In this document: positions 3,928-63,207 of the stretch, piece after piece | Numbering within the stretch: position 1 is the stretch's first letter | How the letters are laid out: every line of letters starts with the position of its first letter | Translations under genes and position numbers: made by a program | Notes under the pieces: generated by a model | Told to the model about the DNA's origin: nothing | The model's input: the letters and a program-made list of their open reading frames with translations, nothing else | The model's database searches: none | Assembly: GCF_004323635.1 (NCBI RefSeq) | Contig: NZ_CP036515.1 | Coordinates: 1,971,501-2,035,500, forward strand | Direction: 5' to 3' | Source of the DNA: Lichenihabitans psoromatis | GTDB taxonomy: Bacteria > Pseudomonadota > Alphaproteobacteria > Rhizobiales > Beijerinckiaceae | DNA length: 64,000 nt

Positions 3928-5169
3928 CTACTGGCTCGACAGGGCGCGGAGCAATGCGCTCGTCGGGTTGCCGTCCGGCACCATCTTGACGCGGGCCTGT
4001 GCCAGCCGGATCGTGTCCCGCAAGGCAAGACTGATCCGGCCTTCGCGGTTATCGACCGGAAAGCCGAGAGCGACGAGGCGCGTCTGAAGGGCGATCCGAT
4101 CCGGCCGCGACATGGGTACGGCCGTCGGCCAAGCGGCCTTGATGGTCGCGCCGCCCTCCATGCGGTCTGCCAATTGCGCGACGCTCAGCACATAGGCGTC
4201 GGAGAAGTTATAGGTCTTCAGCACCTCGAAATTCTCGGTCACGAGGAAGGCGGGTCCCGATGCGCCCGCCGGAAAGAACAAGACGGCGTCGCCCGGGCTT
4301 TGGAGCGGCGAGCCGTCGGCGCGCGTGACGCCGCGCGCGGCCCAGTCCGCAAAGCTGCCTCGGCCGATCGCAACATCCAGCCCCTGCGGCAGCTTCACCT
4401 CGAAGCCCCAGGGCCGGTCGGGTCTATACCCCTGCTGACGCAGAAAATTTGCGATGGAGGCGAGCGTATCGGGCACGCTCCCCCAGATATCCCGGCGGCC
4501 GTCGCCGTCCTGATCGACCGCATATTTGACGAAGCTCGAAGGCATGAATTGCGGTTGCCCCATCGCACCGGCCCAGGATCCGACGAGATCCTGCCGCCGC
4601 ACGTCGCCCTTTTGGAGCAGGTCGAGGCAAGCCAGCAGTTCGGCCCGATACAGTGTCGGCCGGTAGTTCATGGCCGCCAACGTCGCCAGCGAACGCACCA
4701 CATCCTTGCGCCCGGTCGACGCGCCATAGTTGGTTTCGAGGCCCCAGACCGCCACCAGAATGGATCGCGGTACACCGTAGCGGTTCTCGATCGCGCTGAG
4801 ATCGCTGGCCCAGCGGGCCCCCTCAGCGTTGCCGGCCGCGACCCGCGCTGGCGTGACTTGCGACGCGAGATACGCGCCGATCGGTTTGGCGAATTCGGGT
4901 TGCGAGCGGGTCAGCGGTGCCAGCGCGGCATCCGGCGTCATGGCCGCGAAGGTGGCGTCAAAAACCGCGCGCGAAACACCCCGGCTCTGAGCCTCCGGCC
5001 AAATTCCCTCGAGAAACGCCTGAAAGGTCGTCGAGTCGATTGCCACTGTTGCGGGTTGCGCCATCGATGCGGCTGCGGCCACGCCAGCAAAGGGAAACAG
5101 CAGGGTCAGTGCACAAGCGGCCACGAAGAGGGGTGTCTCGCGAATGAGGCGGCCGGTTCTCTGTCGCAT
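3928..5169 (-). CDS. MltB-family lytic murein transglycosylase
   Basis: This 413-residue protein cleaves peptidoglycan between MurNAc and GlcNAc with formation of 1,6-anhydro ends. A signal peptide covers about residues 1-34. The transglycosylase domain (SLT_2) holds the catalytic glutamate E145 in WGLETNYG, the GSWAGAMGQPQFMPSSF block, and DGDGRRDIWGSVPD. The last 60 residues (PDRIALQTRLVALGFPVDNREG) are a peptidoglycan-binding domain of the PG_binding_1 type. The ribosome site AGAGGGA lies close before the ATG. It converges with ssuA and stands alone in its orientation. The protein has no lipobox, so it is likely soluble in the periplasm, unlike E. coli MltB. Confidence 0.9.
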   Translation of the reverse strand: MRQRTGRLIRETPLFVAACALTLLFPFAGVAAAASMAQPATVAIDSTTFQAFLEGIWPEAQSRGVSRAVFDATFAAMTPDAALAPLTRSQPEFAKPIGAYLASQVTPARVAAGNAEGARWASDLSAIENRYGVPRSILVAVWGLETNYGASTGRKDVVRSLATLAAMNYRPTLYRAELLACLDLLQKGDVRRQDLVGSWAGAMGQPQFMPSSFVKYAVDQDGDGRRDIWGSVPDTLASIANFLRQQGYRPDRPWGFEVKLPQGLDVAIGRGSFADWAARGVTRADGSPLQSPGDAVLFFPAGASGPAFLVTENFEVLKTYNFSDAYVLSVAQLADRMEGGATIKAAWPTAVPMSRPDRIALQTRLVALGFPVDNREGRISLALRDTIRLAQARVKMVPDGNPTSALLRALSSQ

Positions 5170-23624: not shown

Positions 23625-23884
23625 GATGCCCGACAAGGGTCACGCCGCCGCCGCAAGATCGCTGGGACGAGACCATGATTCGGACAAGAAACGCTGCGAC
23701 ATTCTGACTGTTGATCCGGGCCCCTCTGGCGTATGTCGAAGTTTCGACTGCGCGATGTCGGATCAGACTGCGCGAAACCCGCAATCGGGTTTGCCAATCT
23801 GCATCGGGTCTGGCGACATCTTTCCCATGACTTGACCAGATTGGTTCTTTAGCGCGGAAACTCGTGCTTCCATGGAGGACTTGT

Positions 23885-60676: not shown

Positions 60677-61573
60677 TTATCGCCCCGATTGCGGGCTGCG
60701 AAGCGGCTCATCGGCGGAGGCCTCTGCTATCGATTCGATCGAGGGGAGGGTCCCCATATTCACATCATCCGGAATTTCGTCGGTCACGACGGTAAAGCCG
60801 ACGAGATTGGCCGGGCCGAAAGCTGTGGAGATCGCCACATCGGTCGCGTCCCGGCCACGCGCCATGACGATCCGGCCGATCCGAGCATGTTTGTGCCGGG
60901 CGTCAAACGTGTACCAGCGGCCATCCAGGAACACTTCGAACCAGGCGCTGAAATCCATCGGCGTATCGCCGACCGGGACTCCGATGTCGCCGAGGTAGCC
61001 GGTGCAATAGCGTGCCGGAATATTCATGCAGCGGCATAAGGTGACCGCGAGATGAGCAAAGTCGCGGCACACGCCGACCTGCTCGGCATGGCCTTCGCTC
61101 GCCGTCCGCGTGTTGCGCGCATGAGCATAGCCGAAGCTGATGCGCTGGTTGGCATAGGCCACGATGGCTTCGACACGTTGCCATCCGCGCGGACTATTGC
61201 CGAACAGCGACCAAGCGAGGTTGCTCAACGCCTCGGTGTCGCAATAGCGGCTTGCCAGCAGGAACACTAAAACATCGTCGGGCAGCTCCTCGACCGGAAT
61301 TTCCTTGGCATGAGGCGCATATTCGTCTTCAAGCCCGCTATCGCGAATAAGAAAGTCGCTGGTCAGGCGGGTTTCGCCGACAGGCGCAAGGATGCGGGTG
61401 ACGCGATTGCCGAAAGCATCCGTATAAACGCGCGAGGCGACCTGGGGCGTGAAGGTGATCTGCTGTGGCGTCAACAGATCCTGCTCGCGCGACGGATGCA
61501 CGCTGAGAAGAAAGAGCATCGGGGTGGGGATGTTACAGAAATATGTGATGTCGAAGCCGCAGCGTATTTTCAT
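60677..61573 (-). CDS. Transglutaminase-like protein with altered triad
   Basis: The 298-residue protein has a distinct N-terminal domain (IRCGFDITYFCNIPTPMLFLLSVHPSREQDLL) and a transglutaminase core. Cys169 in VGVCRDFAH and Asp224 in YTFDARH are present. At the expected histidine position the sequence is MDFSAWFEVFL, giving Ser209 instead of His. The family's usual GRIVMARGRDATDVAISTAFG tail follows. Activity may be lost, altered or rescued by another residue. It lies upstream of the other transglutaminase gene, in the same direction. Confidence 0.82.
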   Translation of the reverse strand: MKIRCGFDITYFCNIPTPMLFLLSVHPSREQDLLTPQQITFTPQVASRVYTDAFGNRVTRILAPVGETRLTSDFLIRDSGLEDEYAPHAKEIPVEELPDDVLVFLLASRYCDTEALSNLAWSLFGNSPRGWQRVEAIVAYANQRISFGYAHARNTRTASEGHAEQVGVCRDFAHLAVTLCRCMNIPARYCTGYLGDIGVPVGDTPMDFSAWFEVFLDGRWYTFDARHKHARIGRIVMARGRDATDVAISTAFGPANLVGFTVVTDEIPDDVNMGTLPSIESIAEASADEPLRSPQSGR

Positions 61574-61912
61574 CGTCGGATCACCGTCAGTTTCAACAAG
61601 CGGAAGGTCGGCGACGGGTCGAATGCCTTTCGGATCGATACCCGCCGTCTCCCATGGACGAACTGAGCATCATTTGCGCCATAATGGCAGCGCGATCCGC
61701 CTGACCCCGTTTTTTTAAGCGCTGATCCCGTCGAGAGGTTGCGCAAGATGAGCGTCTCTTCCATCGCCGCGACGGCGCCTCGGCCAATCGGCGTAGACGT
61801 TATGACTAAAAAAAAGGCAATTTGGAAAAATCGCAGATTTAATGTCTATTTTTGAGGTCGACGGCTTGCGTTTTATACCGAGCTGGTCAAATTAGCACAC
61901 CTGCGATGGTCC
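61574..61912. other. Non-coding region between transglutaminase gene and small RNA
   Basis: This stretch carries the promoter of the minus-strand transglutaminase gene and is AT-rich from about 61790 to 61880. Short open frames at 61570-61790 show no homology or ribosome site. Nothing else is recognised. Confidence 0.4.
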
Positions 61913-61939
61913 AAAAAAAAGGACCGCTAAAAGCGGCCC
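61913..61939 (-). terminator. Rho-independent terminator of the small RNA
   Basis: On the minus strand GGGCCGCT and AGCGGTCC form an eight-pair stem (one G-U) around a TTT loop, followed by eight T residues at 61920-61913. This is among the best terminators in the window and defines the transcript's direction. Confidence 0.88.
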
Positions 61940-62040
61940 AGAGTCTAGGGAGGAAACGCCCAAGAAGGGCATGCGACAACCAACGTCGCATGGGTAATAC
62001 TATGCTGCATTGCCGCAAAGGCAAGCTGTGTAACGAGGCG
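61913..62040 (-). ncRNA. Candidate trans-acting small RNA with anti-Shine-Dalgarno segment
   Basis: On the minus strand, about 120-128 bases form a row of hairpins and end in a strong terminator. In transcript order: TTGCC-tttgc-GGCAA; CATGCGAC-gttggtt-GTCGCATG; GCCC-ttctt-GGGC; an unpaired stretch containing TTTCCTCCCTAG; and GGGCCGCT-ttt-AGCGGTCC followed by eight T residues (61920-61913). An AT-rich promoter-like segment (CAATAAAATATAAAA) lies just upstream at about 62042-62060. The exposed CCTCCC is complementary to ribosome binding sites, as in the alpha-r14/NfeR1 and CcsR-type small RNAs of alphaproteobacteria. The 5' end is estimated. Alternatively it is the 3' end of the kinase message. 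Confidence 0.6.
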
Positions 62041-62145
62041 CCCTTTTATATTTTATTGTCTGTGGTAATTTTACAGCAGATAGGCTCGTCGAGATACGTT
62101 TGGCGCATTCGATCTTGCGCCGCCGTTATCGGCATCGAACAGACC

Positions 62146-63207
62146 TTAGATGCTGTCGGTGTTTGAAAACAGCATGGATGCGTGCGTCCCCGGTCCGTCG
62201 CTGCGATATTCGACCGTCGTCGCAAGCTTTGTTGCCATCGCCTTAACGATTGATCGACCGATCCCGGTCCTGGTGCCGGACTTTTCTGTGGCGACTTTGC
62301 CGACCCCTTCATCCTCGACGATCAGGCGCGTTTGGCGACAGGTCACGGCCTCGAGCCGCACGCGGATGGGACCGCTTCCGGTCGGATAGGCATATTTCAT
62401 CGCATTGATGACGAGTTCCGTCACGATGATGCCGATTGTCACCGCGGTGTCCGGGTTGATCTCGATCTCGTCGGCCAGCAGCACGAGTTGCGACGTGGCT
62501 TCCTGTGCATCGGCGGACTGGCGAAGATCCTCGATCAGTCCGGCCAGATAATGATGCAGCGCAACGGCCGTCACGTCGTCCGACGCATAGAGCCGACGAT
62601 GGACCTGGGCGATCGCCAGAACCCGCCGGTTCGCATCGGCCAATGCCGCGCGTGTGGCCGCATCGGCCGAACTTGCCTGCATGTGCAAGAAGGCTGCGAC
62701 GAGTTGAAGGCTGTTGCCGACCCGGTGATTGACCTCGCGCATCAGCACTTGCCGCTCTGCCGCCAGGGCCTCGAAGCGGTCTCGTGCCGCCCTGATCTCA
62801 CGGTCCGTTTCCGCTTTTTGCCGGCGTAAGGCCGTGCTTTCGATCGCCGAGCGGATCGCTGCATCGAGCAGATCATAGAAAGCGCCTTGAACGTCTTTGA
62901 CCACGTAATCGGCTGCGCCCGCCTTGAGGGCCGCGACCGCGATGCTGCTTTCGTTGGTGCCTGTCACGTAGATGACGGGCGGTGGATCGGGCAGGTCGCA
63001 AATGCGAAGCAGCGTCGTGAGACCGTCCTGTCCCGGCATATAATGGTCAAGCGCCACGCAATCGATCGTACCGGCCGCGATGCGGGCCAAGCCATCCTCG
63101 CCGCTCGAGACCGCCTCGACCGCATAGCCACGCCTCTGCAATTGCCGCTCGATAAGCCGAAGCAGGGCTGGGTCGTCGTCGATGTAAAGAATACGGGCGG
63201 ATGTCAC
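62146..63207 (-). CDS. Receiver-HisKA_2 histidine kinase
   Basis: The 353-residue soluble protein begins with a receiver domain: Asp10-Asp12 acidic patch, phosphoacceptor Asp54 in CVALDHYMPG, Thr83 and Lys104. A coiled linker follows, and then a HisKA_2-type dimerisation domain with His161 in REVNHRVGNSLQL, and an ATPase domain with N-box ELVINAMKYAYP and G-box GIGRSIVKAM. This arrangement (receiver before HisKA_2/HWE kinase) is common in alphaproteobacterial general stress and light signalling. It has no membrane segment or PAS domain. It follows the single receiver gene by six bases and is last in the cassette. Confidence 0.88.
   Translation of the reverse strand: MTSARILYIDDDPALLRLIERQLQRRGYAVEAVSSGEDGLARIAAGTIDCVALDHYMPGQDGLTTLLRICDLPDPPPVIYVTGTNESSIAVAALKAGAADYVVKDVQGAFYDLLDAAIRSAIESTALRRQKAETDREIRAARDRFEALAAERQVLMREVNHRVGNSLQLVAAFLHMQASSADAATRAALADANRRVLAIAQVHRRLYASDDVTAVALHHYLAGLIEDLRQSADAQEATSQLVLLADEIEINPDTAVTIGIIVTELVINAMKYAYPTGSGPIRVRLEAVTCRQTRLIVEDEGVGKVATEKSGTRTGIGRSIVKAMATKLATTVEYRSDGPGTHASMLFSNTDSI

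Follow-up and report, generated by a model that had tools for sequence, protein, structure and literature searches.

A further, dispersed alpha-r8 (suhB/MmgR/SisA) small RNA paralogue, very probably encoded between a histidine kinase gene and a transglutaminase-like gene of Lichenihabitans psoromatis

The feature at 61913-61990 on the minus strand of the window (the whole stretch of 64,000 nucleotides of Lichenihabitans psoromatis DNA that was analysed) is very probably a genuine small RNA (sRNA) gene. It was assigned, with the same high confidence, as a dispersed paralogue of alpha-r8 (suhB/MmgR/SisA) and an ordinary member of a known family. A sequence-only reading of the window had suggested searching the minus strand with Rfam covariance models. 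When this search was run, RF00519 (suhB, described as MmgR; alpha-r8) matched at 61977-61906 with 64.1 bits, above its cut-off of 41. The match covered positions 1-77 of the 77-position model, with an E value of 6.6e-11 over the entire window. No other Rfam family exceeded its cut-off at 61977-61906; Hrs13 gave 20.1 bits (cut-off 52) and anti-hemB gave 18.4 bits (cut-off 49.5). According to PMC1273637, the suhB family has been in Rfam since at least 2005. The RF00519 match, the fold and the T8 run agreed with what the sequence-only reading had described in general terms, an alphaproteobacterial trans-acting-type sRNA with an exposed anti-Shine-Dalgarno motif and its own terminator.

The order of the elements from 5' to 3' was a 5' hairpin, a second hairpin, the unpaired UUUCCUCCCU, UAGACU and the terminator. 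The 5' hairpin (ATGCGAC/GTCGCAT, 61971-61991) was obtained from the fold, and the second hairpin (GCCC-TTCTT-GGGC, 61958-61970) was seen in the Rfam match, the fold and the alignment of copies. The 10-mer UUUCCUCCCU (61947-61956) is the presumed seed with anti-Shine-Dalgarno character, and the identical 10-mer is reported for SisA-D (PMC12559287). Folding of 61988-61913 gave -27.2 kcal/mol with a z-score of -3.39, and the 10-mer was open whether the MFE or the centroid structure was taken. The single-stranded segment that had been proposed as TTTCCTCCC corresponded to TTTCCTCCCT here (61956-61947), and its unpaired state was confirmed in both structures. When the originally proposed 128-nt version was folded, the MFE structure paired part of CCUCCC with the second hairpin, and the centroid did not. 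The mean unpaired probability of UCCUCCC was 0.66 in the window copy, for a segment that extended 9 bases beyond the T-run and contained a competing GGACC there. Over 35 genus copies the mean was 0.76, with 33 copies above 0.5 and 16 above 0.8. Two features expected of alpha-r8 were present, a single-stranded UUUCCUCCCU on the 3' side of a weak hairpin and an intrinsic terminator at the 3' end.

The 3' end was given by the intrinsic terminator (61913-61939), which the terminator scan resolved into an 8-pair stem at 61939-61921 and T8 at 61920-61913. The eight-pair stem and T8 noted earlier on the minus strand were therefore recovered. The 5' end was predicted from the best promoter-like pair, a probable -35 box TTGCCT (62019-62024), a 16-nt spacer and a probable -10 box TAGTAT (61997-62002), which together (62024-61997) matched the consensus at 8 of 12 positions. 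A strict sigma-70 scan (at least 9 of 12 matches) over 61700-62300 gave no promoter. The stretch GCAGCATAG at the -10 box was also found at an equal distance from the core in C1:33329, the nearest paralogue among the copies compared. Over the 35 genus copies the mean promoter-like score was 7.09, compared with 6.05 in shuffled sequences (maximum of 200 shuffles, 6.37). This pair places the start near 61990, so that the sRNA would be transcribed from its own housekeeping-type promoter as an RNA of about 78 nt. The predicted length agrees with the 77 nt given for MmgR (PMC7143759). For an alpha-r8 RNA, a transcript of some 60-80 nt from a promoter of its own would be expected. It replaces the 120-128 nt RNA starting at 62040 that had been proposed, and the AT-rich stretch (about 62065-62040) once taken as promoter-like lies upstream of the best pair. 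Two of the three hairpins in that proposal, located upstream of the 10-mer (61991-61971 and 61970-61958), were retained. The most upstream one (TTGCC...GGCAA) lies in the -35 box and spacer, and with a start near 61990 it falls within the promoter.

Five copies of RF00519 scored above the cut-off in the genome (4.84 Mb, three contigs), with 52.8-66.7 bits. They were located at C1:33329, C1:1086990, C1:1499322, C1:2033406 (the window copy) and C2:108303, the last on a separate 152-kb contig. The C1:1499322 copy sits between genes for Inositol_P (PF00459) and FGase (N-formylglutamate amidohydrolase, PF05013). The name suhB derives from a neighbour gene of the inositol-monophosphatase family (PMC1273637), and the FGase gene is described as the usual alpha-r8 neighbour (PMC12559287). 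Placement beside FGase, which is usual for the family and not required of each copy, was seen for C1:1499322 and not for the window copy. An autoinducer-synthase gene was located within 1 kb of the C2:108303 copy.

Three other explanations of the window copy were weighed. The sequence-only reading had likened the RNA to the alpha-r14 (NfeR1) and CcsR groups, and the small size, the three helices, CCTCCC and the terminator speak for such an assignment. The alpha-r14 RNAs and other CCUCCUCCC-loop RNAs are indeed similar to the present RNA in that they have an anti-Shine-Dalgarno motif, occur in multiple copies and act in trans (PMC7143759, PMC3927594). However, each of the three loops of alpha-r14 RNAs is described as carrying the motif (PMC7143759), and similar CCUCCUCCC-loop RNAs have three or more repeats of it (PMC3927594). 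Here CCUCCC occurred once, in the linker between helices, and not unpaired in each loop of three hairpins. In addition, Rfam gave RF00519, with Hrs13 and anti-hemB far under their cut-offs. The RF00519 match and the motif layout ruled out an alpha-r14/NfeR1 identity in favour of alpha-r8, and the probability left for an alpha-r14 or CcsR-type RNA was negligible.

The other two explanations concern the neighbourhood. The upstream neighbour is an ORF for a receiver and HisKA_2 histidine kinase (62146-63207, minus strand), whose stop is separated from the predicted sRNA start by about 155 bp, and the downstream neighbour is an ORF for a transglutaminase-like protein (60677-61573, minus strand). 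Some or all of the RNA might arise from the response-regulator/kinase mRNA, as the 3' part of a transcript that would stop at the same terminator, and then be excised. The kinase and the sRNA are on one strand about 155 bp apart, and the only minus-strand terminator-like site in 61700-62300 is that of the sRNA, which leaves no such site in the interval from the kinase stop to the sRNA. Against this, the promoter-like pair lies at the proper distance and is partly common to the C1:33329 paralogue. The four neighbour proteins of the window also had no homologues by tblastn at 32 further loci (30 in genus relatives and two in the same genome, most spanning only 1.5 kb per side), so that no synteny of the window copy was found at the loci compared. 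Moreover, the surroundings of 80 relatives of the transglutaminase gene (57-68% identity; none known as a genus member) were searched with a pattern, and no convincing alpha-r8 RNA was seen in the stretches covered. Processing from the kinase mRNA was accordingly considered unlikely, and the RNA as nothing but the kinase 3' untranslated region was kept as a rival that is not favoured. The copy could also be a duplicated, inactive one that is retained merely as the terminator of the kinase operon. Its function could be covered by the four other copies, and of the six NfeR1 copies of Sinorhizobium just one could be detected reliably under the conditions tested (PMC7143759), which meant that silent copies exist in another multi-copy sRNA family. 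However, the 10-mer, both hairpins and the terminator were intact here, and the 64.1 bits lay within the range of the five copies, which made an inactive copy quite improbable. An active alpha-r8 gene with its own promoter was the preferred reading.

The alpha-r8 copies were then counted beyond this genome. DNA matches in six genus genomes, the present one included, numbered 5, 12, 10, 8, 11 and 3. In a family-wide sample, 115 of 119 genomes were matched at E 1e-5. The counts were 5, 12, 11, 8 and 12 for the five genus members sampled; for the other 114 genomes the median was 2 and the mean 2.1, and only one of these genomes had 8 or more (10). Multiple copies were already known, five in Bradyrhizobium japonicum and four in Caulobacter (PMC1273637). 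Two near-identical copies were found on small contigs of one genus relative (L136, 13846-13925, 52 kb; L137, 2046-2125, 23 kb), and both carried GTTCCTCCCC instead of GTTTCCTCCCT. Searches with blastn gave matches in 19 plasmid records from six genera, and all five of those checked with Rfam were verified. These five (L131-L135) came from Methylobacterium/Methylorubrum plasmids of 33-50 kb and scored above the Rfam cut-off, with the match near position 4000, or near 3020 in L133. Genes of the parA type were located within 3 kb in three of them, and toxin-antitoxin or recombinase genes were nearby in four. No match indicating phage origin was obtained among 50,697 records of a phage collection.

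The structure was compared across genus copies. Of 45 pattern matches, 35 genus copies were analysed after L023, four chance matches (L053, L087, L098 and L121) and the plasmid copies L131-L135 were left out. The 35 aligned copies are a subset of the 49 genus matches; L041, for example, does not fit the pattern. GGGCG and TCCTCCC were invariant in the alignment because the selection pattern required both, and their invariance is no evidence of conservation. The 5' hairpin lay outside the selection pattern. Its stem score was at least 5 in 28 of the 35 copies, compared with a mean of 11.7 copies when 5' arms were swapped between copies (maximum 17 in 500 rounds) and a mean of 3.0 when letters were shuffled (maximum 9). 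There were 21 distinct 5' stems among the 35 copies, and 12 copies had a TTCG loop. Three copies scored 4.5, and four (L002, L005, L028 and L142) scored zero because the test requires unbroken stems; L002 formed a bulged hairpin when folded. The sequence of the 5' hairpin varied among the copies and its pairing tended to be kept. A column-wise count of structure pairs gave 52.2% paired cells, no more than with the structure slid by one column; its brackets were out of register, since the 5' hairpins differ in where the loop falls and the columns of helices 2 and 3 were misplaced, and it counts neither way.

The closest known system was SisA-D of Caulobacter crescentus (alpha-R8). As described in PMC12559287, these RNAs also have the identical UUUCCUCCCU 10-mer after a weak hairpin and an intrinsic terminator, and they form a set of dispersed siblings that have no upstream motif in common and of which one lies beside an FGase gene. 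In contrast, five copies were found here, and the window copy has different neighbours. MmgR of Sinorhizobium meliloti (alpha-r8), an RNA with a link to PHB, is likewise described with three predicted stem-loops and an anti-Shine-Dalgarno motif, and it is Hfq-dependent (PMC7143759). However, S. meliloti reportedly has no alpha-r8 RNA other than MmgR (PMC12559287), whereas the window copy is one of five, and the motif of MmgR is placed in the first loop (PMC7143759), whereas it lies 3' of the second hairpin here. The SuhB sRNA of Sphingopyxis granuli TFA shares the family name. This RNA is reported to block thnR translation in an Hfq-dependent manner in carbon catabolite repression, and its reported length is 61 nt, compared with about 78 nt predicted here (PMC6563040).

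In Caulobacter, the 10-mer of SisA pairs with mRNAs with the assistance of Hfq, and TonB-dependent receptors and other genes are repressed (PMC12559287). By analogy, the present sRNA would bind Hfq, and an hfq gene is present in the genome. Assisted by Hfq, UUUCCUCCCU would pair with GGGAGGAAA-like Shine-Dalgarno regions as in SisA. This pairing would block ribosome binding and lower the expression of several mRNAs, with targets perhaps among those for taking up carbon sources and for the first steps of their catabolism. Since the siblings share the seed and mostly differ upstream, they would probably carry different signals to overlapping targets.

Candidate targets were searched for with the pattern GGGAGGAAA-N3-9-ATG, which occurred at four sites in the genome; the reversed pattern occurred at none. 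By Pfam, one of the four ORFs coded for a xylose-isomerase-like TIM barrel, read only over its first 205 residues, and the other three for an SBP_bac_1 solute-binding protein, an aldose 1-epimerase and an adenylate kinase. At three of the four sites the gene that follows is thus of a family that typically serves to take up or convert sugars, which is suggestive only. The six genus genomes contained 24 GGGAGGAAA sites, of which two (L157 and L166) were antisense to siblings and one (L156) was located by eye inside a coding sequence. Among the remaining sites, five started ORFs of 27 aa or less and 16 proteins were examined with Pfam, 15 of which had a domain. Seven of the 16 were five solute-binding proteins, one xylose-isomerase-like protein and one aldose-epimerase protein. 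Those solute-binding families often bind sugars. The other nine comprised three short-chain dehydrogenases, PhnJ, adenylate kinase, an NMT1-like protein, a reaction-centre H chain, a methyltransferase and one protein with no domain. Repression of carbohydrate uptake would be a reasonable guess from these 7 of 16, and the carbohydrate bias, counted without a fair background of gene functions, is suggestive only. One genus relative has such a GGGAGGAAA Shine-Dalgarno site in front of its gene for a photosynthetic reaction-centre H chain (L158, 1515-2294).

The bases flanking the GGGAGGAAA sites were counted by eye against CGGAGGAAA control sites, which were used for this comparison only; two sites antisense to siblings and a double reading were omitted. 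The next base was C at 12 of 22 GGGAGGAAA sites compared with 20 of 30 CGGAGGAAA sites, and CG followed at 9 of 22 compared with 9 of 30. The flanks extended complementarity no more than at CGGAGGAAA, and selection beyond normal Shine-Dalgarno pairing was thus not detected in these counts. Another sequence, GACAGGAGG, was rejected as a target control; it occurred at 66 sites, and only six of the 30 inspected started ORFs of at least 100 aa, which made it unfair. The control pattern AAAAGGAGG-N4-9-ATG gave six sites, all in one genus genome (G002, loci L197-L202), and none in the other five.

In Caulobacter, the SisA set is controlled by the sponge CrfA, which removes SisA upon carbon starvation (PMC12559287). 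In contrast, no conserved sponge was found here among exact 15-base complements; there were 44 such complements to siblings in the six genus genomes, and 43 were the siblings' own opposite strand. The search covered exact 15-base complements, and a CrfA-like partner with shorter complementarity would escape it. The single remaining complement was at C1:3462527 (L023). The exact complement of the 10-mer occurred at 10 genome sites, five of which were the siblings. Two of the other five (L019 and L021) were Shine-Dalgarno sites, and at L017, L023 and L025 no ORF longer than one codon started within 25 bases. L023 had 15 bases identical to siblings and no Rfam match. At about 1440-1570 of this locus, GGGCGTTTCCTCCCT and an ATGCCC-like arm were in common with the siblings, and there was no T-run. 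L023 is perhaps a decayed sixth copy, or an antisense partner on the opposite strand.

The feature is settled as a member of a known sRNA family, and its corrected probable ends give a corrected probe design. What is less ordinary is confined to the number of copies in the genus and to the copies found on plasmids. It is possible, though doubtful, that the genus amplified alpha-r8 (3-12 matches per genome, some on small contigs), with copies that mostly vary in promoter region and 5' hairpin, so that many signals would converge on one anti-Shine-Dalgarno seed repressing carbohydrate uptake (fan-in), with plasmid copies able to alter the carbon control of the host. If the plasmid copies are active, they would be a mobile carbon-control RNA. 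The sibling-rich lineage is well suited to asking why several sRNAs with the same seed are retained in bacteria. Elsewhere in the window, a terC RNA (RF03067) was matched by Rfam at 23708-23770 on the plus strand, with 50.4 bits and a cut-off of 39.9.
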